35,454 nt of DNA from a virus. Below, piece after piece: positions 1 to 18,040 of the stretch. A program made the translations under genes and the position numbers. The stretch covers positions 1-35,454 of IMG/VR virus record IMGVR_UViG_3300010151_000054; one strand, written 5' to 3'. The notes below the pieces were generated by a model that worked only from the letters and a program-made list of their open reading frames with translations, did not search any database and was not told the DNA's origin. Position 1 is the first letter of the stretch. The number at the start of each line of letters is the position of its first letter.

Positions 1-3000
1 AGTAGAGAGGTAACAAGTGGAGAGGATGTTGAGACAAGAATTGGGGACAATCAAAACAAAGAGATAAAACAGACCAGAGACAAGTATGTTATAGAAGGTC
101 AAGACCATGATAGGGTAACAAATAAAATAGGTAGTTTGTATCAAGGCAACCAATCAGATGATAGCCCAGCCCTTAAGGCTGGTAGTAATGTAGATAGTAT
201 TGTACGTCAGTTTTTCATTGATGATGAGATGCCTCCTATAGATACAACAAAGATGACATCAAAGGCTTATGAAGCATTGAAGGAGGCACTTGAAGGCTTA
301 AGGGATAAACTTAAGTCAAAAGGATACATCATTCATGCAGACAATGTTGTCGTATGGGATTCTAATGCTAGCGTTGCTGGTGAGGTAGACTTATTAGTAT
401 TCAAACCAAAGACTGGTAAGTTTTCTATTATAGATATTAAGACAAGTAGCTATACTGTACATTCGCCAGCCTACACCAAACCAGTACAAGGAAATACTCT
501 AAAGAGGAGTAAGGAAAAGCAACATAGGCTGCAACTTAGTATGTATAAGAGGATTCTAGAAAACCAATACAATTCTCCAGACCTTGTAGAAGATATAATA
601 ATATACCCTCTCTTAATTGATAGGAATGGAATGGGTAAAGTTATGTCACTTAAATCAGAGGCTATGATTGTACTTGAATTTGATAAAGCTGCGATAGATA
701 ACATTGTACCATCTACCCAAACTATATCTACAACAGAAGTAAAGGAAAAGACAATTAAGAATGTATCAGAAAAGGGGAAAGGAACTGATATAGACCCAAA
801 TTTGGCTGACCCAGATGTAGATTCAATAGATTGGGATAATGTAGATGAATCTTTAAGACCTTCATGGGCTAGCACTGATAAGAAGACAGATAAAAAAACT
901 GAGAGTGCTGAAGAAGCTGATAAAGATGATGATGTAAATAATGAGAAAGAAAACGATGCTGGGTATGATGACAAAGAGATTCTTATGCAACAGGAAGATG
1001 AACAAAGTATGAGACCCAAGGTTCATAAAGACAAACCATATCTTAAAAAGCTATTGAAAAGATTAAGGAAACATTGGGGTAAACATATAACTGATGAGGC
1101 TTTCTATGGTACAATAGAAAAACATGGACTAAGAGCAGTTGGGATGGCTGTAGGTAAGATGGCTTATTGGTCACAGGATAAGGCATATATGGATACTCTA
1201 CCTCATGAATATTTTCATATCTATCTTGATTTGATGATAGACTCAGACGTAGTACAAAAGGCATTGAAGCAGTTAGAAGCTCAAGGTTTTACTGGTGAGG
1301 CGGCTATTGAAGAACTAGCTACTAGAGTTGGTCTATACTATATGATGAGGATGGATAAGAGTATAAATAAAACTACTGAGGTAGGTATAGGTGGTGACAT
1401 ATTCCAATTTCAGTTTGAACATATGAAGAGATTTAATGTTAAGGCTAATGACTTATATAAGAAGGCAAGACCTGCTAATGTATTAAAACAAATAGGTAAT
1501 TTTCTAAAGCAGTTTTGGAATAGGTTAAAGAATATATTTGGTAAGGTAACACAAGAGGATGCTATAGGATTTATAGCTGAAGAATTTTTTCAAGGTAGAT
1601 GGCTTGGACCAATGGGACAGTACGGTCTAACTGCAAACTTCCAAGCAGAAGAAGAGATTGTTGACCCCGATGGTAGAGAGACTGGCGAAGATGATATTGG
1701 AGATAATCATACAACCAATATACAACCTAGTATAGATTTCTTAGTTACCTTTTATCATAAGACGACTGGTATTATGATGAAGAATGAAACAGTATATAGA
1801 ATATCAGACCTTGCTAATGAGTATAATTCGTTTGAAGAATACCTACCACATTTCATAGACTTCATTAAAGAAGTCGGTTCAAAGTCTCATCAAGATGTAA
1901 AGACAGATTATACTGCAGAGCAGTTAGCATCATTAAAGAACCAATGGGTTAAAGATAAGACTAGGATTTATAGGGCTAGGGATGGTAGACGTGGACCAGA
2001 CACAAGGATGTACAAACAAATAGTTATACCAGACCACAAGCACTATCATGAGAAGGGTGAGAAGAGCCAGATTTCTATGTCTCCTATGAAGAGACCAGAT
2101 GATGGTCAAACACAACAAGAGTCATACACTAGGAACTTCTTTGAAGATGACTTACTACATGGATTCCTGTCATATGCTATGAAGATTACACACTTTAAAC
2201 CTAATGAAGTCTACCACAAGAGATGGGTAGAGGAAGGTAAAAGAGATTGGTATCATGCTAATATACATTTAGTAACACCAAAGATACTGGAGAAGATACA
2301 ACTTGCTGAGAACATGAAGTTCCTTGTACAGCTTGTAGCACTTGGACCAGAGGTAGCTTATCATACTCATTGGTTAGGTGCAAAGGGGAGTGATAAGTCT
2401 GAGATGCTTCAGATGCAAATAAACTCTGACATGAGAATAGAGACTCAAAAGGAATGGGATGACTACTTGGATACTGAAGTTTCTGAAGGTAGGATGAAAG
2501 ATTCTCATGCTGATATAATGAGAGAACAGTTTAAGATAAATGAAGATGGTGCTAAAGACACTCTTCGTATGATACTTAATGGGAAACTCAAGGGTAGATT
2601 CGAAAAGTATTTCAAGATGAGACAGAAGAAAGGTGAGACATTAGCAGAAGCAAAGAGCAGAATATCAAGAGAGATATTACCGATACTAGCGGCGAGAGAG
2701 GTTAATGTAGGAAAAGGATTACATGAATATTTAAAGGCTATTAAGTATGATACTTATGCCATGAATGAGAAACATATTATAGATACATACAATAGGTTAC
2801 AGATACCATTTTCTGAAGGACCCAATCCTATAGGTATTAAACCTCAAGGTAGTATGATGGTGCCGTTAAGCACTATCGTTAAACGCAGATATAAAAGAGA
2901 TGGTAAGACAGTACTAGAAGATGCTGGCACAATAGAGCAAAGAGATGGTGGTACTATTACTGGTACCAGAGCTATGAATGATATAGGTCAAGCAATAGGT

Positions 3001-5919
3001 ACTGAACATATGAGGACAGGTAAGACTGCTATCAGAGTTAAGCGTGTTCACGAGAATAAAGAAGATGACTATGTTGCTCTAAAGCATATGGAAACTGTTC
3101 CACATATAGGAATGGAATACTATAGACCTGGAGAAAAAGTACCATTTGCTAGAGTTGTTGGGAGTGATGAGGGAAGCTACTTTGAAATGCTTGATGATGT
3201 AGGTAGACCTACTGGTGAAACATTCGATAGAATGTACAGTCCAAATGAAGCTAAAGAATATGCTGGTTCATATGGTAATATGCAATATGCAAAACCAAGA
3301 GAGGATGGTTCATATGATGAGAAGTCTGGATACTACAAAATAAATATGGTAGAGGATAGAGATATTAAAATCATTAAGAACCCTCAAGGTTCAGCAGTAA
3401 CTGCAGCACATCCAGTAGCTATGGGTGAGATGTTATTAGACCCAACAATGATTGACCAAGAGAATCATCCAGATACATACTCTCCAGAGGCGTTTAATCT
3501 TTTGCAAGAAATATATAAACACTATGATAAAATTATAGGTTCTTATTTAAAGGACTTAGATAGGTATAGAAATAATCCTAAGGCTCTGTTGGCTGAGATT
3601 AAGAGACAGATAGAAGATGGTAGAGTACCAACAGAAGGGGAGAAGTGGTTAGAATTTCTAGATAGAATGGGTGGTGCTGGTGTACATGCTGGTAATATTA
3701 TACCACTATATGCTCATTATTTAAACAACAAGTTATTTAAGAAAGGGATATTTAAAGCTCGTAATAAACAGAGAGGTCATGCTACTCACTTAGTAATTAA
3801 ACCAGCAGACCATTTGAAGTTTGGAGATAAGGAGTTTGCTGTTAGTTCAGATAACAAGGTAGTACGTTATCAAGTAATGAAAGATTTTATAGACAGTAAA
3901 GGATTAAGAAATAGGAAAGAGTATCAGATAGGTGGTAAGATGCCTACATATATACAAGCGTGGCAGACATATGTAAAATTAAACAAACTTAATTTCCATG
4001 ACCAAATGAAGGCTCTGAATAAATACTTAGAGGGCAATGATAATTGGTGGCTTATACATAGACAGCCAGTAGCAAAGCTAACTGGTATGGGTATAAGGAA
4101 TTTGAATAGACTAGTTGAAGGTGGTCATGGAGAGGCTATCTTTATGAGTGAGTCTGATGTTAAGGATGTTCTTGATGCTGACTGGGATGGTGATGATGCA
4201 TTTGCGGAGAGAGTTTCTCCAGAGTTAGCTAAGGCTTACTTAGATTTTCAGAATAGTGATACTTATATTGAGAAGAATAAGATTGTAGGTCTTACTATGT
4301 TTGGGTTACCTCTAGAAAAAGATGATACTCAAGAAGATTCTACTGCTCTTAGTAAGGAGAATATATATGATGCTATCGTAGGTATATCTGCCACAAGAGA
4401 TGCACAAGGTCGTATGACAAATGCAAAAACAGTCTTTATGAACCTAGCATTTAAGGCTATAAGAATAATCATGCCTCATATTAATAAGGGGAAAGGATTC
4501 TTATCTGTTAGACAACCTACTGATTTAGTACAGATGGAGTACTTACCTCTTGATGCAAGGGGGTTGAATACTATATGGAAGGGTGAAAAAACATATGCTG
4601 ATTTGACATTTGATAATGGTGATGATATAGTAGTTAAAGATGGAGACAGTTGGGTATCAATACAAGATAACAAAAGAAAGTATTTTAATAATGATGGGTC
4701 AATAAAAGAAGGGTTAGAGGCAGACTTAGTATTGCAAACAACCTTTGAACATGAACTATCTATCATGTTTCAGAATGCAGTTGACAATAAAAAGTTTGGG
4801 AACTTATATAAGATGCAATGGAATGATGATTTTCCTCTGACAAGAATGTTTATTAGGAGTGATGGTAAGGACTTAACTACTAAGGACATCAATACTGCAA
4901 GAGTAATGTTTAACATAATTAATTTTAGTAAGCAAAGACAAGGTAGAAACGCAGCTGGTTTCAGTTCTGACATGACTGATGTTATTAATGAGAGTGCTCA
5001 GTTATCTCAAAGATTTTGGAATGAAGAAGGAAAGCCTTTAAGTCAATCAGAGAAAGAAGATGTACTACTATCACAGTTTAATGAAGAAGCACAGGAGAAG
5101 TGGACAAATAAAAAAGGTAGGACTAAAAAAACTGCTGGCATACGTCCAACAAAGATAGAATGGAATGGCAAGTTTACTCCAGGAGAAATGTTGATAGCAT
5201 CAATAGGTAAGAAATGGTATGCATGGATGAACCAGTTAAAAAAGACAGACGCAGGTAAGGATGTATTTGCATTTCTTGGTAATCACTTCTTTGATTACAG
5301 TGCTGATGCTTATGGTATTGCACACATAAGAGCAATGAAAGTATTGTCTGATGAACTTGAGAGTGTTTTATCTAGATACAGTAAGGAAGATTTAGCTTGG
5401 GCATATCAATTTTTATTATCAGCTAGAACAAATAAGATAGATGCTAATACTGGGATGCCTAAGACTGGCGGTAAAAAAATTAGTGTAGTTCAGAAATTCT
5501 ATGATATATATGACCAGTTAGATACAAGTTATGGGAACTCACAGGCTCATATATCTGCAGACTATAGTAAACCTATGATGGCATTTTTACAAGACCACCT
5601 TGAGGAGTTCCTATCATTAAGCGAGGCACAACAAGATATAGTAAATATATTATTTCTTAAAGGAATACAACAAAAGAAAAATGTTACTAGAATGTTACCA
5701 TTCGATTTGTTAAGTACAAGAGAAGGTGGTATAATGGAGAAATATATGCCTAAATTATCAAAGGAATTATTATCTTTAAAATCAAAAGATAAGAAGGTAA
5801 GACAAGGTGGTAAGATGGCAGAAAATAAACAGTATAAAAGATTACATAAGCTATCTATTGAAGGTGCAAAAGAGTTTAATAATACCCCAAAGAAATATAA
5901 AATTAAGTGTAAAGCATGA
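1..5919 (+). CDS. Giant multidomain virion protein: PD-(D/E)XK + zincin peptidase + DPBB RNA polymerase-like (5' partial)
   Basis: The frame is open from base 1 without a stop; the first start-like codon is a TTG at 136, so the true start lies left of the window. Domains seen: a PD-(D/E)XK-like nuclease fold with GEVDLLVF (Asp at 388), IIDIK (Asp 433, Lys 439) and a downstream HRLQLSMYK; an acidic linker near 780-1010; a metallopeptidase HEYFH at 1204-1218 with Glu residues at 1309-1314 as a possible third ligand; then RNA polymerase-like motifs. These are RDGGTITG at about 2941-2964, HRQPVAKLTGMGI at about 4057-4095 and DADWDGDD at 4174-4197, which parallel the beta' series NRAPTLHRLGI...NADFDGD, plus QNAVDNKKFGN near 4774. 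Two-barrel single-chain RNA polymerases of the YonO/crAss-like phage type carry DxDGD. The nuclease and peptidase calls rest on motifs. It overlaps the next giant gene by 4 bases (ATGA). It is probably packaged and injected. Confidence 0.8.
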   Translation, partial: SREVTSGEDVETRIGDNQNKEIKQTRDKYVIEGQDHDRVTNKIGSLYQGNQSDDSPALKAGSNVDSIVRQFFIDDEMPPIDTTKMTSKAYEALKEALEGLRDKLKSKGYIIHADNVVVWDSNASVAGEVDLLVFKPKTGKFSIIDIKTSSYTVHSPAYTKPVQGNTLKRSKEKQHRLQLSMYKRILENQYNSPDLVEDIIIYPLLIDRNGMGKVMSLKSEAMIVLEFDKAAIDNIVPSTQTISTTEVKEKTIKNVSEKGKGTDIDPNLADPDVDSIDWDNVDESLRPSWASTDKKTDKKTESAEEADKDDDVNNEKENDAGYDDKEILMQQEDEQSMRPKVHKDKPYLKKLLKRLRKHWGKHITDEAFYGTIEKHGLRAVGMAVGKMAYWSQDKAYMDTLPHEYFHIYLDLMIDSDVVQKALKQLEAQGFTGEAAIEELATRVGLYYMMRMDKSINKTTEVGIGGDIFQFQFEHMKRFNVKANDLYKKARPANVLKQIGNFLKQFWNRLKNIFGKVTQEDAIGFIAEEFFQGRWLGPMGQYGLTANFQAEEEIVDPDGRETGEDDIGDNHTTNIQPSIDFLVTFYHKTTGIMMKNETVYRISDLANEYNSFEEYLPHFIDFIKEVGSKSHQDVKTDYTAEQLASLKNQWVKDKTRIYRARDGRRGPDTRMYKQIVIPDHKHYHEKGEKSQISMSPMKRPDDGQTQQESYTRNFFEDDLLHGFLSYAMKITHFKPNEVYHKRWVEEGKRDWYHANIHLVTPKILEKIQLAENMKFLVQLVALGPEVAYHTHWLGAKGSDKSEMLQMQINSDMRIETQKEWDDYLDTEVSEGRMKDSHADIMREQFKINEDGAKDTLRMILNGKLKGRFEKYFKMRQKKGETLAEAKSRISREILPILAAREVNVGKGLHEYLKAIKYDTYAMNEKHIIDTYNRLQIPFSEGPNPIGIKPQGSMMVPLSTIVKRRYKRDGKTVLEDAGTIEQRDGGTITGTRAMNDIGQAIGTEHMRTGKTAIRVKRVHENKEDDYVALKHMETVPHIGMEYYRPGEKVPFARVVGSDEGSYFEMLDDVGRPTGETFDRMYSPNEAKEYAGSYGNMQYAKPREDGSYDEKSGYYKINMVEDRDIKIIKNPQGSAVTAAHPVAMGEMLLDPTMIDQENHPDTYSPEAFNLLQEIYKHYDKIIGSYLKDLDRYRNNPKALLAEIKRQIEDGRVPTEGEKWLEFLDRMGGAGVHAGNIIPLYAHYLNNKLFKKGIFKARNKQRGHATHLVIKPADHLKFGDKEFAVSSDNKVVRYQVMKDFIDSKGLRNRKEYQIGGKMPTYIQAWQTYVKLNKLNFHDQMKALNKYLEGNDNWWLIHRQPVAKLTGMGIRNLNRLVEGGHGEAIFMSESDVKDVLDADWDGDDAFAERVSPELAKAYLDFQNSDTYIEKNKIVGLTMFGLPLEKDDTQEDSTALSKENIYDAIVGISATRDAQGRMTNAKTVFMNLAFKAIRIIMPHINKGKGFLSVRQPTDLVQMEYLPLDARGLNTIWKGEKTYADLTFDNGDDIVVKDGDSWVSIQDNKRKYFNNDGSIKEGLEADLVLQTTFEHELSIMFQNAVDNKKFGNLYKMQWNDDFPLTRMFIRSDGKDLTTKDINTARVMFNIINFSKQRQGRNAAGFSSDMTDVINESAQLSQRFWNEEGKPLSQSEKEDVLLSQFNEEAQEKWTNKKGRTKKTAGIRPTKIEWNGKFTPGEMLIASIGKKWYAWMNQLKKTDAGKDVFAFLGNHFFDYSADAYGIAHIRAMKVLSDELESVLSRYSKEDLAWAYQFLLSARTNKIDANTGMPKTGGKKISVVQKFYDIYDQLDTSYGNSQAHISADYSKPMMAFLQDHLEEFLSLSEAQQDIVNILFLKGIQQKKNVTRMLPFDLLSTREGGIMEKYMPKLSKELLSLKSKDKKVRQGGKMAENKQYKRLHKLSIEGAKEFNNTPKKYKIKCKA

Positions 5920-8900
5920 GCGAATGTGGCAAACAGAATGAAGCAGTAGAAGAACAAGTTCTTAATGACTACTCTAGTTTTACTAGTGATGCACAATCTG
6001 CAGTAGCATCTTTAATAGGGTGGCCAACCAAGAGTGGTATCTTAAGAGCAAACCAAAGGTTAGCTGGGGTAGATGTTAATGCTCCTAATAGTCGGAAGCA
6101 AATTAAGAAGTTTAAGAAGCAGATAAAAGCAGAAGAGAAAAAATACGAAGACCATTTAGACTTGTTCGATGAGTTATCCTCACAAATATTAGAGGCTGGT
6201 AACCAATCTTACTTAGAGGTAGACCCATTTGATATAATAGCAGACTGGAAAACATACCTTAGTAAGAAACAGTATGGAGATTTAGACCCAAGTTCATTTA
6301 TATACAGTCCTAAGTTAGCAAAGGCTGTGTTGGTTCAAGCAAAGAAAGTTAGAAGAGAAAGAGATAAGATACTTAAGAAAGGTGGTGAATCTAAGAGAGA
6401 CATAGCTTGGAGGGGACCAACTGCTATTATGATGAGGGCTGATAAGTATGGTATACTTATGAAGGTAGTACAGAAAGGATTAAGATTGTCTACTAATGTA
6501 ATTAATTCTTACAGTACTCCTGCTGATGCCTTTAGAGTAACACTAGGGGCTCTTAGGGATAACATAATGGAAATGACTGAGAAGACTAAGCTGGGTGCGA
6601 AGATGTTAGACTTAAATAATGCTAGTCTCTGGGGTGTAGTCCAAGACCCGAAGACTGGTACTGGCTTTGTAACAACTTCTGAGTCTCCAGACTTACCTCA
6701 ACGAGAAGTGCTGATTATAGGTGAGAATCCTAACATAGAAGGAGAGCCCTCTTATAAGATTAGGCTAAGAAAAGACGATGGCGAGTGGGATATGGATAGA
6801 GAATACTGGTTACCTATGAGACATCTAAAGGCTAGTAAGACTGAAGTAAAGAGGGCTATGGTTTCTGGTATAACTGGTAGGTTTATGAATGAAGTCCTTG
6901 ATGGTGCTGCGAGGTATGTTGTTCTTGATGTAGTTCCTCCAGAGAATGTATGGGATGAAGTAAGACAGGAGTTTATACCCAATCGTGACTTTCAAAGATA
7001 TAAAGATGAAAAATGGGATGAAAGGAATGACAGATTAGTTACTGAAATGCAAGATGACTATGAACATAACAAAGACCCAGAGAATGACATGAGATTGACT
7101 CCTCATGTTTATCATACTGTTGGTCGAGATGGATGGACATATAGATATACAATGATGAGGAAACAACATCCTTCTGGTATGGAACAATGGCACGCCTTCC
7201 TTATAAGTAAAGAACCTCCAGGTTCAAGAGAAAGGCAAGACCAAGATGGGAATTATGTCAATGAGGGAAGAGAATACCTTTTAGATAGGGGTTATAGCAA
7301 GACTGAGTGGGACAATATAGATATGGAAGAGGGTTGGTATCATTCTGCAGAGGAAAAATACTTTGGTAGAATGAGAATTAATAAGCAAGGGAAAAAACTT
7401 GGTAAATCAGCTCGTAAAGCATACATAAATTTTGAGCGTATGGAGATGCAACCTCCAGAAGATTTACTTAACTATCAGACACAGCCAGAAGGAGAGCAAG
7501 AGAAGTTTCTTAATTTCTGGGAAACCTTAAGGGGAATGAGAGACATATATGAAAAGGTTGGAGAAGATGTACAGAATTTTAATGGTCAATTATCTCAGAG
7601 ACTAGCTGAAGTAAGAGACTTTATTAATAATGAATTTGATAGACTCAATTTATCTCCCGAAGATAAGTTAGCTAAGATGAATGAACTGCTATCTATAGCA
7701 GGTATGAGGTCTAAAGTATTTTGGGACCCAGAGAGTGGCTATATTACTACACCAACTACGTTCTTTAACTTGAAGGAGAACAGAAGATACTTCCCACATA
7801 TGTTTACTGAAGATAATCTTTTTAAGATGATAGACCATGCTATTACCAGAATGGAAGCTAACATAGCAGAGATGGGAGAGACAGAGTCAGATGAGTATAA
7901 AGAAATGACGGAAGGTATTGCTCATATGAGAATGATGAGGTCTAGGTTATTGGATGAAGTTGCAGATGATGACCCTACTGCAGTAAGGCAAATGGTAGAA
8001 GGTGAAAGTAATGTACACATGAAACATATCAAGGCTTGGACTGATGCAGGACTGAAGAGGACTGATGGAGAGGTACACTTTGACTATCTCAATAAGATAT
8101 ATAATAATTTACATAGACAAGACTTAGTTAATGATACTCTTGAGGCTACCGCAAAGGCTATTAGAATGGGAGGTGCGTTGCCAGAAGGTAGTGTAGAAAC
8201 ATTTGTTAATAGAATAAAGATGACTGTTGGTGATGCAAGGACAAGAGCAATAGGACTCTTTGGAATAGATGGTAGTTACGAGAACACTGCTACTATGTTA
8301 AATGGTATGCCTAAGATTATAAAGGGAGATACAGTACATACTGCTGAGTCTGCTGAAAGAATTACTAAGTGGTTAAACTCTATTGCTACCATGAGATACT
8401 TGGGGAGTAAGTCTGCTTTCGGAAACCTTACACAGATAGCTAATGAAATAATAGCTGTCGGATTTGGTACATTTTATGAATCTATGGGGTTATTGTGGGG
8501 AAAGGATAGAGCTAAGTGGGAATCAATAGTAGAGGGTACTGGTGTACTTAACATACTAACTATGTTCAATGATATAATGTTACAAGGTGGAGATTTAGAC
8601 TATAGTGATGGACCCTTTGCATTTATGGGAGTAGGTGGTAATGTAATACCTAGTAAGAACATGAAGTCTTTCATGAATCTCTTGCGTCTTGGAAGAGATA
8701 AGTTCATGACATCTAGTGATAGTAGAGTAGATAATATGCTTATGAAGATGGAAGCAAAAAGTAGAGGTATAGATACATCAGATATAGTAAGGTTGAGAAA
8801 GCTAAACGCTGAGAGAAAAAGTATATTGACTATCAAAAGAGGTGAGTTGTATGATGTATTGGCAGCACCCGCTGAAGATAATGAAGAAGCTATAATGTTG

Positions 8901-9755
8901 AAGAGGATGAAGAAACTTACTGGTGACATAGCTGATAAGAAGTTAAGGAAGATGGTTAGCTGGAAATTATCATGGCACTTTGACCCGTTCAAGGGAGTAT
9001 TCACGTTTAGTGGGACTGAAACTAACTTGAGGAAACTAACTGCTCTAATGGCTATGCTAGATGCTGAAAAAAGGGGGAGGTTAGGAGGTAACATAGAAGT
9101 AAATGGTTCTGGTGGTGATGGTAGTATCTTTAGGACAGAGACAGCTAGAAGAATAGCAAGAGATGCTGTATATAATACTCAGTTTGGTATGACTCCAGAG
9201 TTTATGGGAGAAGGATTCAATGGGTTCTGGAGATGGATAATGCAATACAAGACTTACCCAGCACAACAGATGGGACATGATATGGATGTACTAAGGAAGT
9301 GGTGGATGAGGGGGGAAGATAGGTCTGGGAGTTTATCAAGACTCTTTAAAGAACATATAGATGGGTTCCAGAGGTGGCAAAAGGGAAAAGGGTATGACCC
9401 TACTGATACATCTATAGACCATGAAGCAGTTCAAGTAATGAGAATGTTATATACTAGAGGTATAGCATCAGTTCTTGCTACATTTATGAGTGTGATACCT
9501 ATACTTGGCTTTGCATTAAGAAGATTTGGTGGAGGTAATGGGTTTAGTTTACTTAGAAGTTTCGAGAATCCAGCTCTTGGTATAACTATGAGACTACTGG
9601 CTTGGACAGTTATGTTAGGAATGGGAGATGATGATGACGATGGTGCTAGTGAGTTCTTTGAAGACTTTAGTCTTCTATTCTTACCAGTATTTATAGGTAT
9701 GATGGCAAGAGATGTGAAAGGAGTTAATGATTGGCACTCAGAATACTTTGATTAG
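5916..9755 (+). CDS. Giant putative internal/ejection virion protein (1279 aa)
   Basis: It starts in the ATGA overlap with the polymerase-like gene, so the two are translationally coupled. The protein is mostly helical and charged, with a Lys/Arg-rich coiled stretch near residues 55-75. The C-terminal part has the pattern SAFGNLTQIANE, then ARRIARDAVYNTQFGMTPEF, then MQYKTYPAQQMG, a style common to large phage internal virion proteins that end in membrane-active segments. Hydrophobic segments lie at about 1182-1204, 1219-1237 and 1251-1261, separated by an Asp-rich run (DDDDD). I recognise no catalytic motif. Its pairing with a packaged-polymerase candidate suggests a role in delivering cargo through the host envelope; this is inference. 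The gene ends 4 bases inside the convergent minus-strand gene, leaving no room for a terminator. Confidence 0.65.
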   Translation: MSECGKQNEAVEEQVLNDYSSFTSDAQSAVASLIGWPTKSGILRANQRLAGVDVNAPNSRKQIKKFKKQIKAEEKKYEDHLDLFDELSSQILEAGNQSYLEVDPFDIIADWKTYLSKKQYGDLDPSSFIYSPKLAKAVLVQAKKVRRERDKILKKGGESKRDIAWRGPTAIMMRADKYGILMKVVQKGLRLSTNVINSYSTPADAFRVTLGALRDNIMEMTEKTKLGAKMLDLNNASLWGVVQDPKTGTGFVTTSESPDLPQREVLIIGENPNIEGEPSYKIRLRKDDGEWDMDREYWLPMRHLKASKTEVKRAMVSGITGRFMNEVLDGAARYVVLDVVPPENVWDEVRQEFIPNRDFQRYKDEKWDERNDRLVTEMQDDYEHNKDPENDMRLTPHVYHTVGRDGWTYRYTMMRKQHPSGMEQWHAFLISKEPPGSRERQDQDGNYVNEGREYLLDRGYSKTEWDNIDMEEGWYHSAEEKYFGRMRINKQGKKLGKSARKAYINFERMEMQPPEDLLNYQTQPEGEQEKFLNFWETLRGMRDIYEKVGEDVQNFNGQLSQRLAEVRDFINNEFDRLNLSPEDKLAKMNELLSIAGMRSKVFWDPESGYITTPTTFFNLKENRRYFPHMFTEDNLFKMIDHAITRMEANIAEMGETESDEYKEMTEGIAHMRMMRSRLLDEVADDDPTAVRQMVEGESNVHMKHIKAWTDAGLKRTDGEVHFDYLNKIYNNLHRQDLVNDTLEATAKAIRMGGALPEGSVETFVNRIKMTVGDARTRAIGLFGIDGSYENTATMLNGMPKIIKGDTVHTAESAERITKWLNSIATMRYLGSKSAFGNLTQIANEIIAVGFGTFYESMGLLWGKDRAKWESIVEGTGVLNILTMFNDIMLQGGDLDYSDGPFAFMGVGGNVIPSKNMKSFMNLLRLGRDKFMTSSDSRVDNMLMKMEAKSRGIDTSDIVRLRKLNAERKSILTIKRGELYDVLAAPAEDNEEAIMLKRMKKLTGDIADKKLRKMVSWKLSWHFDPFKGVFTFSGTETNLRKLTALMAMLDAEKRGRLGGNIEVNGSGGDGSIFRTETARRIARDAVYNTQFGMTPEFMGEGFNGFWRWIMQYKTYPAQQMGHDMDVLRKWWMRGEDRSGSLSRLFKEHIDGFQRWQKGKGYDPTDTSIDHEAVQVMRMLYTRGIASVLATFMSVIPILGFALRRFGGGNGFSLLRSFENPALGITMRLLAWTVMLGMGDDDDDGASEFFEDFSLLFLPVFIGMMARDVKGVNDWHSEYFD

Positions 9756-10603
9756 TTGTCTGAGGCTTTGACCATTTGAAACTTCTTTTTAGATTTAGTT
9801 AAGTCTTTCTTTTTCTTAGTGGGATGCAGCCCATTCTCAATGAGCCACTCTTCACCCTCTACAGCGTGAAGTTTTTTCCCACCATAGGGCAAATCTTTCT
9901 CTAGATTATATATTACTTCAAGGTATGGGATGTACTTAACATATTCATTTATCATAGAGTCCTTACTACATGAGTATACTGTTACCCCATACTTAGGAGA
10001 TGTGTGACTAAACCATCTAAGATACTTGTCAAGGTTGGCATACAAATTGTTATTCCATATTAAAAATCTTTTATCGAGGGTAGTCCCATCATAGTAGGCT
10101 TGTTTCTTAGTACTGAAGTCACAACCAAATAAAAAAATACTCTTACAGCCCATCCACATTGCTAGATGTAGTGAGATAGCAAAGGTATTACTATGCCATA
10201 CAAAATTTGATTTCCTTTTTAAGTTCTTGAATATTTCTATTGGGTCTTTTGGTTTCTTTAATGAAGCAAAGTACTGATTGTAATTAGCATGATAAGGAAT
10301 TTTATTTTTGTCATCATCAATGATGTATCTCTTCTCATACCCTGCCCTCATTATTTTAATAAACGGTTCCCAAAAGAGTTCTCTATTGTAACAGATTGGG
10401 TCATCCATACCTAACCAAATATCTGGTCTAACAAATGGATAGGTATTATTCTGTGCCATTACTATTCTATTTTTACCATTAAGATGTTTAGGATTTATTT
10501 GCTTGAGAGATGGACCACCTCCTATAATAAATGCTACAGAATTGTTCCATTCACGATGTAAATCAAATGGAATCATTTTACCTTTATCTATATAGAAAAG
10601 CAT
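9752..10603 (-). CDS. DUF115/Rossmann-like protein with GGGPSL motif
   Basis: A 283-residue protein with AFIIGGGPSL near residues 25-34, followed by NRIVMAQNN and PDIWLGMDDP, and later SIFLFGCDF. This matches the DUF115-like, Rossmann-type proteins often found in phages near virion genes, some of which are thought to be sugar- or nucleotide-binding transferases. The substrate cannot be read from the sequence. Two starts are possible: ATG at 10603, without a clear ribosome site, or ATG at 10576 (residue 10), preceded by AAAGG four bases upstream. I list the longer form. It is the last gene of the minus block and is separated from the gene above by 49 bases that contain a TATAAT box and the repeated 14-base element, so it may have its own promoter. 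Confidence 0.6.
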   Translation of the reverse strand: MLFYIDKGKMIPFDLHREWNNSVAFIIGGGPSLKQINPKHLNGKNRIVMAQNNTYPFVRPDIWLGMDDPICYNRELFWEPFIKIMRAGYEKRYIIDDDKNKIPYHANYNQYFASLKKPKDPIEIFKNLKRKSNFVWHSNTFAISLHLAMWMGCKSIFLFGCDFSTKKQAYYDGTTLDKRFLIWNNNLYANLDKYLRWFSHTSPKYGVTVYSCSKDSMINEYVKYIPYLEVIYNLEKDLPYGGKKLHAVEGEEWLIENGLHPTKKKKDLTKSKKKFQMVKASDN

Positions 10604-10623
10604 ATCAAAAATTCATTTCAGAA

Positions 10624-10654
10624 ATTATACATACTTAAATACCACATGGGCATT
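10624..10654 (-). promoter_or_regulatory. Candidate phage promoter: 14-base repeat plus TATAAT
   Basis: On the minus strand AATGCCCATGTGGT (10654-10641) is followed by TTTAAG and then TATAAT (10629-10624), about 21 bases upstream of the first possible start of the DUF115-like gene. The same 14 bases recur at 24868-24855, upstream of the first gene of the minus block. There is no TTGACA at the usual distance; the repeat occupies the -35 area. Confidence 0.5.
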
Positions 10655-11633
10655 AGGCATAAAATGGATACCAAGTACCCGTAGTCTTAGCTACTCCCGT
10701 TTTGTTTACATATACATCAATTACCCAAAACCCAGTATGTGCTGATAGCCTCTTTGACTTCATCCATCCCGATTGCTTCTGTATACAACCAGCAGAGTAA
10801 CAATGTATGTGCCTATCGAATAAGTACATACTCTTATGGACGTGACCGAACATCATAACATTCGGCTTTGTTCCTCCAGTTAAAGACTCAACTATCTTCT
10901 GGATACGATATGATACAGCATAACTGCTACCATCTTCACCATGCCAAAGTTTTACTGTAGCTGTATCACTAAGTGATATATCTCCTTCATCATGTCCCAA
11001 AAAAGTAGCGTGCTCAATAGCCTCACAAATATCTGGGACTATATATGCTCCATTAGATTTGATAAACCACCTATCATGATTACCATCTATTAAATATATT
11101 GGGGACGGACACTTACTAAGGACTTCGATAGCGATTTCCTTTTGTTGTGTATATCCTAAGTGAGACAACTCGTAGATATGACCAGGGCGGTTGGACATCC
11201 CTTCGCATACGTCCCCAACTTGACACACGAAATCTACATTAACTCTTTCAAATTCTTTATATGCTTCATAAATATAATTTATATCACAGTATACGCTTCC
11301 AAAGTGTATGTCACCTAGTATACCTATTCTTGTTCTGTCTCCTTTTAAATTTACAACTGGTGTCTTAGGTTGTCCTGGAAGTATCTTAGCACCTTTAGCA
11401 ATAGCCATCAATTCAGTTCTAGTATAGTTTTTCTCTATATCTCTTAGTACTTTGCCTCTTTCTATGTCAACACCTAATGCTTTTGCTCTTCTTAAATATC
11501 TAGCAAGTGTTTGAGGCTTTATCCCCATCAATTCAGCAGTTTCGTCTCCGTGTATTAAGTACTGTGTTATTACTTCATATATTCTTTCTTGTCTACCGTG
11601 ACTAGTGTCTCCTACTTTATCGTTTTTGTCCAT
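10653..11633 (-). CDS. Calcineurin-like metallophosphoesterase with N-terminal HTH
   Basis: This is a 326-residue protein. The metallophosphoesterase motifs appear in order: GDIH at residues 107-110, GDVCEG at 140-145, GNHDR at 184-188, HGE at 231-233 and GHVH at 263-266. These are the metal ligands of the calcineurin-like superfamily (Mre11/SbcD and related phosphatases), so it very likely hydrolyses phosphoester bonds, perhaps in DNA or nucleotides. Residues 15-55 (ETAELMGIKPQTLARYLRR) look like a helix-turn-helix that could bring it to DNA. The ATG overlaps the stop of the upstream methyltransferase gene (TAATG), and GAGGAG lies a short distance upstream. The substrate is unknown. Confidence 0.85.
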   Translation of the reverse strand: MDKNDKVGDTSHGRQERIYEVITQYLIHGDETAELMGIKPQTLARYLRRAKALGVDIERGKVLRDIEKNYTRTELMAIAKGAKILPGQPKTPVVNLKGDRTRIGILGDIHFGSVYCDINYIYEAYKEFERVNVDFVCQVGDVCEGMSNRPGHIYELSHLGYTQQKEIAIEVLSKCPSPIYLIDGNHDRWFIKSNGAYIVPDICEAIEHATFLGHDEGDISLSDTATVKLWHGEDGSSYAVSYRIQKIVESLTGGTKPNVMMFGHVHKSMYLFDRHIHCYSAGCIQKQSGWMKSKRLSAHTGFWVIDVYVNKTGVAKTTGTWYPFYA

Positions 11634-12457
11634 TAATTAAACAACTCCTCTTGTGGCTTAGTAATTTCATAGTTAGTAATAATTAATTCTTTTCTTTCTT
11701 CCCCTCTTATGTCTGGGTTAGAGCCAACATACTTGGTTATTATTCTATCTACATTATACTCTTCATACAAATCTGCTATTCTATCTACATTATCATAACT
11801 AATCATAAACTTCGCACCTTGTTTATCTACATGGTCCATAAGTTCTTTCATTTCTTCGTGCAATTCGTAAGTAAAGTTGTTCCTATAATACTTCTTCTTG
11901 TCTGCTACTACATATGGTGGGTCTAGGTAGAGAAAATCTCCTTCTCTTATAGTATAACGAGGGATTAACTCTCTGAAATCTAGGTTTTCTATTGTGGCTC
12001 CATCTAGCTTGTCTCTTGACTGTTTTAATTCTTCCTTTATCCGTAGTCCCCAATATGTATCCTTAGAAAATGAGTTATACGGTTGGTTATTGAAAGAATT
12101 TCTCACTATATAGAAGTACTGAGATGCCCTTACTGGGTCTGGTATGTTTATCTCTTGTGTGGATTTTATTGTCTCTTTGTAATTATCATGTAGTTTTCTG
12201 CTCCTAACACTCCAATATATACGTTCTGCTAGTTCATCGAACCTATCCAACACACAAATATACAGATTAACTAGGTCATTATCAATATCATTCAGCACAT
12301 TCCAAGATGCTTTATTCTTTCTAAAGTATAGTGAACCACCACCAAAGAATACTTCAAAGTATCTTTCATGTTTTGGTAACATATGTATTAATCTTCTACT
12401 CATTTCGTACTTACCACCATAGTATGGTATTACTGTAGGACATTCTTTGCTACTCAC
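11633..12457 (-). CDS. D12-class DNA adenine-N6 methyltransferase (Dam-like)
   Basis: I chose a GTG start at 12457 because AGGAGG lies six bases upstream; this gives 274 residues. The frame extends to 12505, but the extra part overlaps a separate small gene. Class D12 motifs are present: PYYGGK at residues 11-16, EVFFGGGSLYF (SAM-binding motif I) at 35-45, NDID at 56-59 and the catalytic DPPY at 179-182. This family (Dam, M.DpnII) transfers a methyl group from S-adenosylmethionine to adenine, most often in GATC. No restriction gene lies next to it, so it is probably an orphan enzyme used for protection or regulation. GATC is almost absent from this genome piece, which makes the target of special interest. 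Confidence 0.9.
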   Translation of the reverse strand: MSSKECPTVIPYYGGKYEMSRRLIHMLPKHERYFEVFFGGGSLYFRKNKASWNVLNDIDNDLVNLYICVLDRFDELAERIYWSVRSRKLHDNYKETIKSTQEINIPDPVRASQYFYIVRNSFNNQPYNSFSKDTYWGLRIKEELKQSRDKLDGATIENLDFRELIPRYTIREGDFLYLDPPYVVADKKKYYRNNFTYELHEEMKELMDHVDKQGAKFMISYDNVDRIADLYEEYNVDRIITKYVGSNPDIRGEERKELIITNYEITKPQEELFN

Positions 12458-12459
12458 AA

Positions 12460-12558
12460 TCAACCTCCTACTAACTTGCATAACCAATCCCAAAACTCTA
12501 TACAACCATAGTACATATGTTTATACAGCATCTGCATACAACAAATAAAACTAGTCAT
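12460..12558 (-). CDS. Small Cys/aromatic-rich protein (32 aa)
   Basis: ATG at 12558 overlaps the stop of the 92-residue gene upstream (ATGA), and AGAGG lies six bases before it. The stop comes two bases before the GTG of the methyltransferase. The product begins MTSFICCMQMLYKHMYYG and is rich in Cys, Met, Tyr and Trp; its ends are hydrophobic. No family is recognised. The exact fit between two neighbours and the ribosome site argue that it is a real gene. Confidence 0.5.
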   Translation of the reverse strand: MTSFICCMQMLYKHMYYGCIEFWDWLCKLVGG

Positions 12559-12833
12559 TCTTCACCTCTATACCCTATTGATGAAATCATACTACGCTTC
12601 TTACTTCTATCATCCTCATCTCCAGGGTCATGTGCTGAATTAAATTCATCAGCAGTAGTCTTTTCTACAAGTATATACTCTGATTCATCTAATAACCTTG
12701 CATATGAACTGTAGCCTAATCTGTTCTCAGTAGGGGAAGCATCCATTATAAGAAACCAATCATCATTATCTAGCACATCTTGGGATTCGGGGAAACACTT
12801 AACTTCTAGTAAGAACCTTTTACATTTATTCAT
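12555..12833 (-). CDS. Hypothetical acidic protein (92 aa)
   Basis: The ORF starts with ATG at 12833 inside an ATGA overlap with a 47-residue ORF upstream; AAAAAGGAG lies seven to eight bases before the start. The protein is acidic in its C-terminal half (AHDPGDEDDRSKK). I recognise no family. Its place among DNA-metabolism genes gives no specific function. Confidence 0.7.
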   Translation of the reverse strand: MNKCKRFLLEVKCFPESQDVLDNDDWFLIMDASPTENRLGYSSYARLLDESEYILVEKTTADEFNSAHDPGDEDDRSKKRSMISSIGYRGEE

Positions 12834-12973
12834 TTTTTATTCTCCTTTTTTATTATTTTTAACATATGTGATATAGCACCATTTATACTTATGAGTTCAC
12901 CAGATATAACATCTAGTCTCTTAAGCAGTTCTTTTATTTTTCCGTAAACGTCTATCTTGTACTTATCCTTCAA
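12830..12973 (-). CDS. Small Lys-rich helical protein (47 aa, TTG start)
   Basis: The reading frame is open between the 77-residue and 92-residue genes. The likely start is TTG at 12973, with CGGAG about seven bases upstream, and the stop overlaps the next ATG (ATGA). The sequence LKDKYKIDVYGKIKELLKRL and on has a regular Leu/Ile spacing that suggests an amphipathic helix. Without this ORF there would be a 130-base gap in an otherwise packed operon. The function is unknown. Confidence 0.5.
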   Translation of the reverse strand: MKDKYKIDVYGKIKELLKRLDVISGELISINGAISHMLKIIKKENKK

Positions 12974-13196
12974 AGGTAACTCCGACCGTAAATGCTAGTT
13001 TAAATAACACTATTCTTATTCTAAATGTATTTACCCCAACACAAATCCCAAGTTTTAAAGGGTATATCCCTATCTTAAAGTCAGACTCATACCCATTCGG
13101 ATGCTTAAGTAATGTATAGTTAAGTATTAGAGGGAATACACCCAAGTCTTTATGTTTTACTACTTCTATTGTTGGTATTTCTACTTTATTGCTCAT
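12963..13196 (-). CDS. Hypothetical protein (77 aa)
   Basis: ATG at 13196 sits one base after the RuvC-like gene's stop, with GAGGAAGA overlapping that gene's end. The C-terminal half is hydrophobic and beta-prone (IGIYPLKLGICVGVNTFRI), with alternating charged positions. No family is recognised. It ends 11 bases inside the following small gene. Confidence 0.6.
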   Translation of the reverse strand: MSNKVEIPTIEVVKHKDLGVFPLILNYTLLKHPNGYESDFKIGIYPLKLGICVGVNTFRIRIVLFKLAFTVGVTFEG

Positions 13197-13197
13197 A

Positions 13198-13680
13198 TTA
13201 TTCTTCCTCTGTTTTAATATTGTGGTTATTCATTCCCCAGAATGCTATTAGTATAGCATCTGCTGTTTGTTTTGTTACTTTTATTTCATAGTCATGTGAA
13301 AGTTCTTCAGCTATTGATAAAAGTGAGTTCTTTCGTTCAGTATAGTTTCTTGGGAGTGGCTGATACTCTGACATCCATGTTTGTGGTATCACTTTAATTC
13401 TAGGAATAAAAGAATGACCTAGTATACCAAGCCATTTACCATAGTTTACTCCAAACGTAAATGATGACCTAACAGAGTTCATTGGTCTTGCCCAGACCTC
13501 CTCTATTACTGCTGATAATGTATACCCTCCAATTTCACTGTTACTTATACATCTATTTATTAAAGTCCCCATTGCTTCTGCATTTTTAGGGCACTTAAAT
13601 ACTTCTAAATGCTCATCCGATAAGTATGCTAGACCTCCATTAGCTCCAGGGTCTATACCTATTATTGCTCTATCTGACAT
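13198..13680 (-). CDS. RuvC-like Holliday junction resolvase
   Basis: ATG at 13680 is preceded by GGAGG at five bases; a TTG four codons earlier overlaps that site and is less likely. The 160-residue product has the RNase H/RuvC fold signature: IIGIDPGANGG with Asp10, an acidic pair VIEE at residues 58-61, and TADAILIA with Asp141. RuvC-like enzymes cut four-way junctions with two metal ions. In a phage this resolves recombination intermediates and branched DNA before packaging. Length and catalytic spacing fit a complete RuvC. It sits in the same operon as the helicase, SSB, annealing protein and nuclease. Confidence 0.85.
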   Translation of the reverse strand: MSDRAIIGIDPGANGGLAYLSDEHLEVFKCPKNAEAMGTLINRCISNSEIGGYTLSAVIEEVWARPMNSVRSSFTFGVNYGKWLGILGHSFIPRIKVIPQTWMSEYQPLPRNYTERKNSLLSIAEELSHDYEIKVTKQTADAILIAFWGMNNHNIKTEEE

Positions 13681-13888
13681 ATTTTCCTCCAAAGAGTTTG
13701 ATTATTCGTTTAGTTATTGTTGCTGTCTTCTTATTAGACCAATGCTTACATCCTATAGAGAAGACATTTGATGGTATTTCCTTATTATCTGACTGTTCTG
13801 TTTCGAAATAAGTACAAATACCATCGTCATTATATCCACAGTTGCTACAGTTATGATTCGAGCCAGTTATCTGATAATTTGCTAACAC
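13670..13888 (-). CDS. Small Cys-rich, probable zinc-binding protein
   Basis: The frame runs from an ATG at 13939, which would overlap the helicase gene by 89 bases. A GTG at 13888, with AGAGAGG just upstream, gives 72 residues and a smaller overlap; I chose it with reservation. The product has CSNCGYNDDGICTYF and later GCKHW, so four Cys plus a His that could bind zinc. It ends 11 bases inside the RuvC-like gene. The function is unknown. Confidence 0.55.
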   Translation of the reverse strand: MLANYQITGSNHNCSNCGYNDDGICTYFETEQSDNKEIPSNVFSIGCKHWSNKKTATITKRIIKLFGGKYVR

Positions 13889-15191
13889 TATCCTCTCTTG
13901 CTTTGTTCTTTGTATCGTAGAACCTACACTTATCTCCATTAAACCCTACTTTAAACCCTCCTACTGTACCATATCTACTTTTAGATGCTATTATTTCTGT
14001 CTCATACATATCGTATTCTTGATGGTCAAAGTTATATCCATAGAATATAAACAATGCTGTTTCTACTGTCTGTTCTATCACACCACTCTCTGCATAGTCA
14101 CTCATTCTAGGGTATGGGTCTATTCTTCTTTCAATCTCTCTGTTTAGCTGACTCAGTACAAATGCAGAACAATTCTCTTTCTTACATATCCACTTATACT
14201 CTAACATAATATTCTCTATTTGGAATCTTCTATCTGCATTGTTAGGAATCATTATCAGTTGTATGTAATCATCTATTACTATGTCTGGCTTATGTCTCGA
14301 TATTTCTGACATTGCATCGTCTAGATTTCTAACATCATCATACATCCTAACATCTTTATACTTCTTGGATATTTTCTCTTCTATCTCTTCTAATCTCTTA
14401 CTGTCATCTCTTAGAGTACCACTTCTTAGTTCACTATAAGATAGGTTCTGACTTTCAAGGATAATTAGCTTTCTTATCATCTCAGTATTACTCATTTCTC
14501 TATTGAAAAGGACTATCTTCCTCCCTTGTTCTACTAATGATTTTAATACATTCAACATAAGGGTCGTCTTTCCATGTCCAGGTCTACCACCTAGTACTGT
14601 AACTTCACTTCTTGTCATGCCTCCTGCTGGTCTATCCAATGCAAACATTCCGAATGGTATTATGTTATCACCCTTCTTAATCATTTGTATAGCTTCTTTA
14701 ACTATTAGGTCTACCTTTCTGCTTCTGTCTGGCTGTAAGTTTCTTAGTTCTTCTAGTATTCTTATTTGGTCTGTGACTGTACTTGATACACTTGTATAAT
14801 CTGCAAATCCCCTATTTGTTAATATGCTAGAGAGTTTAATGGCTTGTCTTTGTACGTATCTTTCCCATACAATTCTTCCATGATTCTCTATATTAGCTGC
14901 AGTTGGAGTTGATTCAAGTAAACCACTTAGATAATACGCTAAAGACTCTTTGGGATATAAATCTTTACACTTATTCCCAAGTGTCACTAAGTCAATGGGT
15001 ATTTTCTCTTTCCTTAGTTCCTTTATAGCCTGCCAAGCCATCTTGGATTCCGAAAAGTAAAATGCATCATTCTTCTTTATCCAGGGAGACACCTTATCAA
15101 ATGATGTTTCATCTAATAAGATGCCCCCAAGTATGGATTCTTCAGCAGTTTTGCTACAAGGAGACATTTTTATTTGCTCCTTTTCACTCAT
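13851..15191 (-). CDS. Replicative DnaB-family DNA helicase
   Basis: This 446-residue protein has the usual DnaB length. The N-terminal domain (residues 10-110) contains AEESILGGILLD and EKIPIDLVTL, as in DnaB. The RecA-like motor has Walker A GRPGHGKT at 202-209, Walker B IVIDD at 304-308 and LSQLNREIERR at 346-356, the region that includes the arginine finger. It would unwind the phage replication fork as a hexameric ATP-driven ring. The ATG overlaps the stop of the upstream gene (TAATGA) with GAGGG before it; a second ATG eight codons later also has a GGAG site. No primase or DNA polymerase gene is visible in this window. Confidence 0.93.
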   Translation of the reverse strand: MSEKEQIKMSPCSKTAEESILGGILLDETSFDKVSPWIKKNDAFYFSESKMAWQAIKELRKEKIPIDLVTLGNKCKDLYPKESLAYYLSGLLESTPTAANIENHGRIVWERYVQRQAIKLSSILTNRGFADYTSVSSTVTDQIRILEELRNLQPDRSRKVDLIVKEAIQMIKKGDNIIPFGMFALDRPAGGMTRSEVTVLGGRPGHGKTTLMLNVLKSLVEQGRKIVLFNREMSNTEMIRKLIILESQNLSYSELRSGTLRDDSKRLEEIEEKISKKYKDVRMYDDVRNLDDAMSEISRHKPDIVIDDYIQLIMIPNNADRRFQIENIMLEYKWICKKENCSAFVLSQLNREIERRIDPYPRMSDYAESGVIEQTVETALFIFYGYNFDHQEYDMYETEIIASKSRYGTVGGFKVGFNGDKCRFYDTKNKAREDSVSKLSDNWLES

Positions 15192-15973
15192 TATGCCCTC
15201 GCTATTGTTGCCATGTTATTTATTTTCTTGTAAATATCAGACTCAAACTTATGTGTTGCTTCTTTCTTTCTATCCATTTGATGTGTTGCTACCCAAGTAG
15301 CTACATTCAATAAATCCCAGTATGTTTTGGGTGGTTTACCCACCATCTTTCGCATTGCTACTTCCATATACTGACTTGGGAATGATGTTAAGAGGTTTGC
15401 TGTATCTTTCTTATTTAATTCAGTCTCCACTAAGTTTGGAAAGTCTGTCTTCATTATGTTTACTACACTATCAACCACATCAGTTATAATACTATCAATC
15501 TCCAACTTCTTTGAACCAATATGGTGTCTAGCACTACTCTTACCAAAAGTATAACCTATTACTAACCCATTAGAACATATCAATCTGAATGCTCCTGCTA
15601 CTGCAGATGCTTCATAGAAACCATCATAACTGTTCTTGATATGTATTGTAGGATTAACATAGTCACCTTTATCAACTTTTACCTTTAAGTCTGGAAATCT
15701 AAACTTCCATTGACATCTTGCACCTCCACCAAATATATTAGTTTCTTGTAGTACTGCTCCCATCTCTTCTAATCTGGGCAGTGCCGCATCTAATAAGGTT
15801 GAGTTGTCTATTACTTTATAGGAATTAGTCATACAAGATAAGATTTTATTTGTATCTTCTCTAACTATAAGTTTATAATCTGTCGGTACATTTCCTTGTG
15901 GTGTGTCAAATGTAACTGCAGCTTCCTTTATTGGAAACTTCGACTCTTCTAGTTTACTAAATGGTAGATTCAT
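15191..15973 (-). CDS. DUF932-like phage protein (260 aa)
   Basis: The sequence has the pattern of DUF932 phage/plasmid proteins: KLIVREDTNKILSCMTNSYKVIDN, then LPRLEEMGAVL, a beta-rich core with GGARCQWKFRF, FRLICSNGLVIG and ARHHIGS, and a helical C-terminus. The family is common in phage and plasmid replication regions, but its biochemical activity is not established. ATG at 15973 has GGAG eight bases upstream. It ends one base inside the helicase gene, so the two are co-translated. Confidence 0.75.
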   Translation of the reverse strand: MNLPFSKLEESKFPIKEAAVTFDTPQGNVPTDYKLIVREDTNKILSCMTNSYKVIDNSTLLDAALPRLEEMGAVLQETNIFGGGARCQWKFRFPDLKVKVDKGDYVNPTIHIKNSYDGFYEASAVAGAFRLICSNGLVIGYTFGKSSARHHIGSKKLEIDSIITDVVDSVVNIMKTDFPNLVETELNKKDTANLLTSFPSQYMEVAMRKMVGKPPKTYWDLLNVATWVATHQMDRKKEATHKFESDIYKKINNMATIARA

Positions 15974-16094
15974 TTTCTATCTCCGTTATTTTTATTTTTC
16001 TATTATTATTTTCATTTATGGTTCTCTTATTAAGACGTATTGTTCTTCTTATACTAGCAAACATATGCTTAACCATTTTAATTGCTTCCTTCAT
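15957..16094 (-). CDS. Small basic protein (45 aa)
   Basis: ATG at 16094 overlaps the previous gene's stop (ATGA) and AAGGAG lies nine bases upstream. The product MKEAIKMVKHMFASIRRTIR continues basic and Asn-rich. It ends 16 bases inside the DUF932-like gene. No family is recognised. The start signal and the filling of an otherwise empty gap support a real gene. Confidence 0.55.
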   Translation of the reverse strand: MKEAIKMVKHMFASIRRTIRLNKRTINENNNRKIKITEIENESTI

Positions 16095-16483
16095 TGTTGT
16101 AGTCTCCTTATTTTAGGTGCTCTTCCGAGACGTTTAATCTCGTTTATTTTACGTTTTTCTCTATTAATTGAGTCATTAAGTAATATAGCTTTCAGATACT
16201 TAAGACCTTTCCCTTCGTATTGATACCCTTTAACTAGATACCTATCTATTTCTCTTCTAAGTAATGTATCTTCTACAGCAGAAACTCCCTTTAAGAAGAA
16301 GAACTTATTTGCTGTACTATTATCAGAGGGTATATTTTGTGACACTTTTCTGAACAAAGTATCTATTGATTTTTTAGTTGCTGAACTCCTTGTATTTTTT
16401 AGTAGTAGAAGTTTTGCTGAGTAATTATATGTCTTAGAATAACTCCAACCACATACTGGACAAGCCTTGCTAATTTTTTTCAT
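16091..16483 (-). CDS. Hypothetical basic protein with CPVCG knuckle (130 aa)
   Basis: The start is taken as ATG 16483, ten bases after GGAG; a TTG two codons earlier is also possible. The N-terminus has a single CPVCG knuckle (residues 8-12), half of a zinc site, and the rest is Lys/Arg-rich with KGYQYEGKGLKYLKAI. A nucleic-acid-binding role is plausible but unproven. It overlaps genes on both sides by 4-14 bases. Confidence 0.6.
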   Translation of the reverse strand: MKKISKACPVCGWSYSKTYNYSAKLLLLKNTRSSATKKSIDTLFRKVSQNIPSDNSTANKFFFLKGVSAVEDTLLRREIDRYLVKGYQYEGKGLKYLKAILLNDSINREKRKINEIKRLGRAPKIRRLQQ

Positions 16484-16664
16484 CTGCAAACATCTCCTTC
16501 ATACAACCAATTAATTTCAACATATCTTTTGCTGTACTGTATTCGTCATAGTGTACCAATTCCTTTATTTCATCAAACTCCTTCTTCATGCTATTCTTAA
16601 AGTCACCGTTTGGTAAACCTTCATATCTTTCAATTAGTGATACTACTTCTTTCATTTTAGCCAT
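16470..16664 (-). CDS. Hypothetical small protein (64 aa)
   Basis: ATG at 16664 follows AAGGAGAAGAAACT, a good ribosome site. The protein is helical and charged (MKEVVSLIERYEGLPNG). No family is recognised. It overlaps the upstream gene by one base and the downstream gene by 14 bases. Confidence 0.6.
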   Translation of the reverse strand: MAKMKEVVSLIERYEGLPNGDFKNSMKKEFDEIKELVHYDEYSTAKDMLKLIGCMKEMFADEKN

Positions 16665-17110: not shown

Positions 17111-17111
17111 A

Positions 17112-17755: not shown

Positions 17756-17915
17756 TTAGTCTCTCCTCCATATCTTTCAGTTGTTTTCTAAGTACTACTA
17801 CATACTTTGGTAGTCTTTCATCTGGTAGTGTAGTTACCATTTCATTTATAGTACATAGTTCTCCTAAAGTTAGCTTTATTGTTACTGTTGCTTCTTTAGT
17901 TATTGTTTGTTTCAT
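17646..17915 (-). CDS. Hypothetical coiled protein (89 aa)
   Basis: AAAGGAG lies seven bases before ATG 17915. The product has a beta-prone N-terminus (TITKEATVTIKLTLGEL), a charged helix with RKQLKDMEERLNEKVRE, and a C-terminal CVLCKD. The last third overlaps the next gene. It is the first gene downstream of the tRNA and structured element. No family is recognised. Confidence 0.55.
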   Translation of the reverse strand: MKQTITKEATVTIKLTLGELCTINEMVTTLPDERLPKYVVVLRKQLKDMEERLNEKVREAVNDQSTGTKSFEEQAQVETSKGSCVLCKD

Positions 17916-17937
17916 ATTGTATCTCCTTTATCAATCT

Positions 17938-18034: not shown

Positions 18035-18040
18035 TTATAG

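Follow-up and report, generated by a model that had tools for sequence, protein, structure and literature searches.

A Giant Phage Protein with a Predicted Two-Barrel RNA Polymerase Behind a Nuclease and a Zincin Motif

The window analyzed here, a linear viral contig of 35,454 bases, begins with a giant open reading frame whose product almost certainly carries a two-barrel polymerase domain. We read the protein as a single-chain two-barrel RNA polymerase (RNAP) that would be packed in the virion, ejected and used to transcribe the first viral genes, a full mechanism that we consider probable by analogy with crAss-like phages. The motifs, their conservation, the family links, the predicted fold, the domain order and the gene position described below were all computed.

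The giant ORF and its motifs

The giant ORF is the C-terminal part of a longer protein, its 5′ end being cut by the contig start, and translation of frame 1 meets no stop upstream as far as that start; complete relatives are about 2500–3250 aa long, and, judging by the relatives, a whole genome would measure about 55–60 kb. The features of the ORF and of its downstream neighbor are as follows.

1–5919, plus strand: giant ORF, frame 1, 1972 aa, C-terminal part
91–741, plus strand: PD-(D/E)XK nuclease domain, residues 31–247 (GEVDLLVF...FSIIDIKTS...QLSMYK)
1204–1218, plus strand: HEYFH zincin-type metallopeptidase motif, residues 402–406
2845–3378, plus strand: first β-rich domain, presumed barrel A, residues ~949–1126, from alignment and AlphaFold2 secondary structure
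2941–2964, plus strand: RDGGTITG, DG opening of presumed barrel A, residues 981–988, with D982 and G983 invariant in 9 sequences
3082–3084, plus strand: K1028 (xKH), invariant in the alignment, may correspond to the catalytic lysine of barrel A
3781–4212, plus strand: second β-rich domain, presumed barrel B, residues ~1261–1404, with the R-x-P and DxDxD elements, from alignment and model
4057–4068, plus strand: HRQP, with R1354 and P1356, invariant R-x-P ahead of the putative catalytic loop
4174–4197, plus strand: DADWDGDD, residues 1392–1399, predicted metal-binding triad D1394, D1396 and D1398
5916–9755, plus strand: downstream ORF P0002, 1279 aa, directly after the giant

Translation of the ORF places RDGGTITG, HRQPVAKLTGMGI (starting at residue 1353, nucleotide 4057 of the window, plus frame 1) and DADWDGDD where the original prediction had located them, with 40 residues from Arg1354 to Asp1394; the "codons about 2800–4700" that it had named for structure prediction are nucleotide positions, not codons. 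The motifs of barrel A (D982, G983 and K1028) and those of barrel B share one open frame. Bare DxDxD occurs in 61% of 20,000 shuffles of the giant protein, D[FWY]DGD in 0.7%, and RxP with [AG]DxDGD at the right distance in 0.01%, and thus the motif combination, which arises in about one of 10,000 shuffles, is not a product of chance, whereas bare DxDxD alone would be. A DNA-pattern scan of IMG/VR for ADWDGDD returned eight other contigs whose contexts are plainly unrelated, so the motif by itself is not diagnostic.

Conservation among relatives recruited through the terminase

IMG/VR scans with the giant itself (P0001) and 300-aa scans at first returned no relatives. IMG/VR contains at least 598 relatives of the window's terminase gene (26122–27690), and it was through this gene, not through the motif, that the giants of the relatives were recruited. 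All eight terminase-bearing contigs of at least 38 kb encode a giant ORF, mostly of 2750–3250 aa when complete, in which R-x-P is followed 37–40 residues on by D-x-D-x-D. All 10 sequences compared (the window and nine giants from the eight contigs) agree at R1354, P1356, D1394, D1396 and D1398, in an alignment that has very few further invariant columns. HMMs of the two main groups confirmed the core in the same eight contigs. This conservation across terminase-recruited giants is stronger proof than the shuffle statistics. Further scans yielded 24 sister-group loci and additional loci of the window's subfamily; the patterns that recruited group B and the majority of group A loci contained DxDxD, and motif conservation is therefore claimed for the nine terminase-recruited giants and the window only. 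The loci fall into four groups.

Group A, DWDGD: P0001, L116, L117, L118, L145, L146, L147, L148
Group A′, D[QH]DGD: L119, L120
Group B (sister family): DFDID, DYDID, DFDGD, DMDGD
Group C: DFDLD, DFDFD

The Trp of D-W-D-G-D had been singled out as unusual, and it proves to be so: each of the eight members found of the window's subfamily has DWDGD, the sister groups have Phe, Tyr, Met, Gln or His at this position, and 13 crAss-type polymerases have Phe or Tyr only. As DWDGD is confined to the window's subfamily among the groups compared, the Trp is a signature of that subfamily. The proposal that RDGGTITG forms the DG opening of a first barrel is likewise supported, with the DG invariant in the subfamily and located in the first β-rich region, where the alignment also shows K1008, K1028 and H1029 to be invariant. 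The position of K1028 after the DG is what one would expect in a first barrel, and group B has an invariant Lys too, within F-T-S-A-S-K.

Profile link to crAss-type RNA polymerases

In all 13 crAss-type RNAPs, which include those of phi14:2 (6VR4) and crAss001 (gp50), [YF]R-x-P precedes D[FY]D[IV]D by 39 residues. Comparison of groups A and A′ with group B by hhalign gave P = 3.1e-8 and a score of 80 over 318 columns (connector, barrel B and beyond), against a maximum score of 19.5 in 40 column shuffles, and groups B and C were joined at P = 1.4e-25. Group B in turn matched the crAss RNAPs at P = 4.6e-5 with a score of 54.6 (shuffles at most 20.2, reversed 17) and with R-x-P and DFDID in exact register, and all groups together matched them at P = 7.7e-6. 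The window's subfamily alone gave no significant hhalign match to the crAss RNAPs (P = 0.15–0.29); its proposed link to them runs via sister group B. Low similarity beyond the DxDxD region is usual between such polymerase families (PMC10770324).

The order of R-x-P and DxDxD, read in the original prediction as that of the β′ subunit, is thus kept as a core in very divergent giants and is tied to the crAss RNAPs through the sister family. Of the profile support that had been foreseen, the hhalign link through group B stands, and the Rpb1 family PF00623 has no match in the polymerase region of the window. Searches of the giant with Pfam RNA polymerase models, PHROG and PDB sequences gave no match that reaches the polymerase region, and the polymerase regions of groups A, B and C had no tblastn match in a phage collection of 50,697 records.

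The Flavobacterium phage Fpv1 (L157, 34368–47573), which is not classed in Crassvirales, encodes a giant "structural protein" with a crAss-type polymerase core, FRTP...DYDID.

Predicted fold

An AlphaFold2 model of window residues 820–1760, built from nine sequences (the window and eight homologs; pLDDT 69, pTM 0.65), has two β-rich regions, the first of which holds the DG motif and the second of which ends with the DWDGD loop. Foldseek comparison of this model with the PDB gave 25 matches with E ≤ 0.001, and every one of the 50 best PDB matches listed is a two-barrel RNAP; these include QDE-1 (E = 4.7e-6), 6VR4 (the crAss phi14:2 RNAP; E = 8.5e-6, probability 1.00), the AR9 non-virion RNAP, and bacterial and plastid β′. 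A second model, of group B alone and from a non-overlapping alignment (pLDDT 75, pTM 0.75), matched 6VR4 at E = 6.4e-10, nearly six orders of magnitude ahead of the next match, and again the 50 best PDB matches listed are RNA polymerases only. In both models the two β-rich regions stand where a two-barrel enzyme should have them. Matches in BFVD comprise unnamed viral proteins, down to E = 2.5e-34, and several crAss-phage giants. Global TM-scores to the PDB are low (0.27–0.34 for the best matches and at most 0.35, with an rmsd of ~22 Å), and the domain packing in the models is therefore unreliable. The enzyme assignment, which had been drawn from motif order, is now supported by conservation, profile comparison and predicted fold.

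A nuclease and a zincin motif upstream in the same chain

The nuclease domain of the window is homologous to residues 1687–1903 of crAss001 gp47 (tblastn 30% identity, E = 3e-16; pairwise E = 3e-23), and its match to a PHROG exonuclease is weak in the window (E = 0.01) and reaches E = 4e-9 in the homolog L117. The HEYFH motif at residue 402 corresponds to HEAFH at residue 2157 of gp47, in the same order and at similar spacing after the nuclease, and the zincin region (residues 324–507) has a weak pairwise similarity to gp47 (E = 0.002). The window giant thus contains a gp47-type unit, a PD-(D/E)XK nuclease followed by an HExxH zincin, in which the zincin match is weak. All eight DWDGD giants contain HExxH, which groups A′, B and C lack. 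In crAss001, gp47, gp49 and gp50 have been detected in virions by mass spectrometry (PMC10172136).

The giant of L117 has a DUF7831 domain at ~810–917 (Pfam E = 1.3e-36), upstream of the nuclease; the counterpart in the window would lie beyond the contig start.

Gene neighborhood and phage identity

An ORF of 890–1314 aa follows the giant in most relatives in which downstream DNA is seen, a placement like that of crAss001 gp49 after gp50. The similarity of P0002 to gp49 or to the downstream ORF of the sister family was not above that of a reversed control, and homology to either is not claimed. One relative (G005) carries the terminase, portal, capsid, tail fiber, further genes, the giant and the downstream ORF on one strand, with another set of genes grouped on the complementary strand. 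This 111-kb IMG/VR contig (loci L097–L101, ~13–111 kb) apparently contains two phage genomes in head-to-tail order, each of them with a terminase and a giant polymerase of its own (the DWDGD type at 34.4–43.0 kb, the DFDID type at 92.3–101.3 kb), and is possibly a concatenated assembly.

The terminase, portal and capsid of the window belong to phrog_38, phrog_156/P22_portal and phrog_1328/SU10_MCP, whereas those of crAss001 belong to phrog_6681, phrog_6547 and phrog_11589, the crAss001 portal touching phrog_156 as well, and pairwise BLAST of the three proteins found no similarity (E above 0.2). Because these signature genes fall into different PHROGs and lack pairwise similarity, the phage is not a member of Crassvirales by this measure. 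No relative of the window terminase was found in 84,980 bacterial and archaeal GTDB genomes; several of the sample numbers resemble those of what we take to be ocean metagenomes.

Shared k-mers upstream of the minus-strand block, sought as promoter candidates, were no more numerous than in shuffles. Sigma-70-like promoter matches in 9000–26200, the presumed early block, number 51, fewer than the 69.6 (s.d. 8.5) of shuffles, a shortage that is compatible with a private polymerase and is not used as evidence here.

Other genes of the window include the following.

9752–10603, minus strand: MptE-like/sialyltransferase-like protein (PHROG 4603; Pfam MptE-like just below cut-off), convergent with the polymerase operon
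11633–12505, minus strand: D12-class DNA adenine methyltransferase (E = 2.6e-26)
13198–13692, minus strand: small protein with IIGIDPGANGGLAYL near its start, which recalls RuvC-type Holliday junction resolvases; no Pfam match
32247–32942, plus strand: protein with collagen-like Gly-x-y repeats, encoded between portal and presumed scaffold gene, which may decorate the head or form a fiber

Proposed mechanism and alternative readings

In the mechanism that we propose, residues ~950–1700 would form a single-chain DNA-dependent RNAP of the two-double-psi-barrel kind, in which barrel B would supply the metal-binding triad D1394/D1396/D1398 and the R-x-P loop, and barrel A the DG opening and a conserved Lys. 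Its gene closes the late module of head and tail genes, and the polymerase stands behind the nuclease and the putative zincin protease in one chain. The giant would be packed in the capsid and ejected via portal and tail, before or together with the DNA, and would perhaps be cleaved by its own zincin; the injected polymerase would then transcribe the first viral genes and so make early infection independent of the host polymerase. We infer catalysis, packaging, ejection, the early-gene role and the roles of nuclease and zincin, and our confidence in the full mechanism is lower than in the enzyme assignment because packaging, ejection and early transcription are argued by analogy with crAss phages.

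Phage two-barrel RNAPs are known in both virion and non-virion forms (PMC10770324), and the protein could instead be a non-virion enzyme, synthesized in the cell to serve middle or late transcription, as is P23-45 gp64. We judge this unlikely, given that the chain is fused to the nuclease–zincin unit of a virion protein, crAss001 gp47, and that giant size and a place in the late structural module beside the tail genes are typical of ejected proteins. The fold leaves room for another activity, since two-barrel folds include RNA-dependent enzymes and PolD, and the window model has QDE-1 as its top PDB match among those listed. However, a polymerase that copies RNA in the manner of QDE-1, or that primes DNA replication, rather than transcribing DNA, is very improbable here: the phage has a dsDNA genome, with a DnaB helicase among other ordinary replication genes, and the sister family best matches the DNA-dependent crAss enzyme by a wide margin.

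The very fast divergence of sequence outside the core could point to a catalytically dead two-barrel domain retained as a structural part of an ejectosome or tape measure, but nothing in the entire protein is better conserved than the three Asp residues and the R-x-P loop, the opposite of what relaxed selection would leave, and we accordingly give this reading hardly any weight. A chance likeness of an acidic stretch to the β′ motif, in a protein that is something else, would draw on the frequency of bare DxDxD in shuffles (61%) and on the eight ADWDGDD-bearing IMG/VR contigs of unrelated context; it is contradicted by the conservation, the profile links and the fold matches, and its probability is negligible.

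Comparison with known systems

The preferred reading, a virion-borne single-chain RNAP, has its closest parallel in the crAss-like virion RNAPs such as crAss001 gp50, with which the window giant shares the single chain, the two-barrel fold according to Foldseek, an R-x-P that stands about 40 residues ahead of D-x-D-x-D, a further large ORF next to it, and a nuclease–zincin unit in the transcription block (gp47). It differs in having DWDGD in place of D[FY]D[IV]D, in uniting nuclease, zincin and polymerase in one chain, in a polymerase region that lacks direct BLAST similarity, and in a terminase, portal and capsid that belong to another lineage. QDE-1 and the cellular RNA-dependent RNAPs of RNA interference (PDB 2J7N) are also single-chain two-barrel enzymes, and QDE-1 gives the best PDB fold match listed for the window model; QDE-1 is, however, eukaryotic, takes RNA or ssDNA as template, and has neither sequence similarity to the giant nor a nuclease or zincin.

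Thermus phage P23-45 gp96 (PMC10770324) is likewise a two-barrel RNAP within a giant virion protein, found via its DFDGD motif, but its fusion partner is the tape-measure protein of a long-tailed phage, and it is not among the fold matches listed for our models. As described in PMC5512222 and PMC12633501, the N4-like (Schitoviridae) virion RNAP follows the same strategy, with a giant virion protein of ~3500 aa in which the polymerase is fused to zincin domains. The N4 enzyme has its relatives among the T7-like single-subunit polymerases, however, and not among two-barrel ones. The polyvalent proteins are multi-domain injected phage proteins in which zincin is the commonest domain; the consulted portions of PMC5512222 do not mention a double-psi-barrel polymerase among them, whereas the window giant has the polymerase as its core.

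Significance

Giant two-barrel polymerases are a kind already familiar, chiefly from crAss-like phages and one Thermus phage, and the window's relatives extend that kind to another lineage. What would be new is the lineage itself, the DWDGD subfamily and the nuclease–zincin–polymerase fusion, none of which we found described in the literature searched. Because the phage collection, Pfam and PHROG fail to recognize them, such giants would pass as "hypothetical protein". Their diverse D[W/F/Y/M/H/Q]D[G/I/L/F]D set could help to relate single-chain, RNA-interference and cellular polymerases. On balance, we favor the view that a large lineage of uncultivated phages outside Crassvirales, with a P22-like portal and an SU10-like capsid, opens infection with an injected two-barrel RNAP, and that in the window's subfamily this RNAP would be part of a self-processing nuclease–zincin–polymerase chain, a fused form of separate crAss virion proteins. 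The fused chain offers a testable model in which a giant would be threaded out of the virion and matured in the host.
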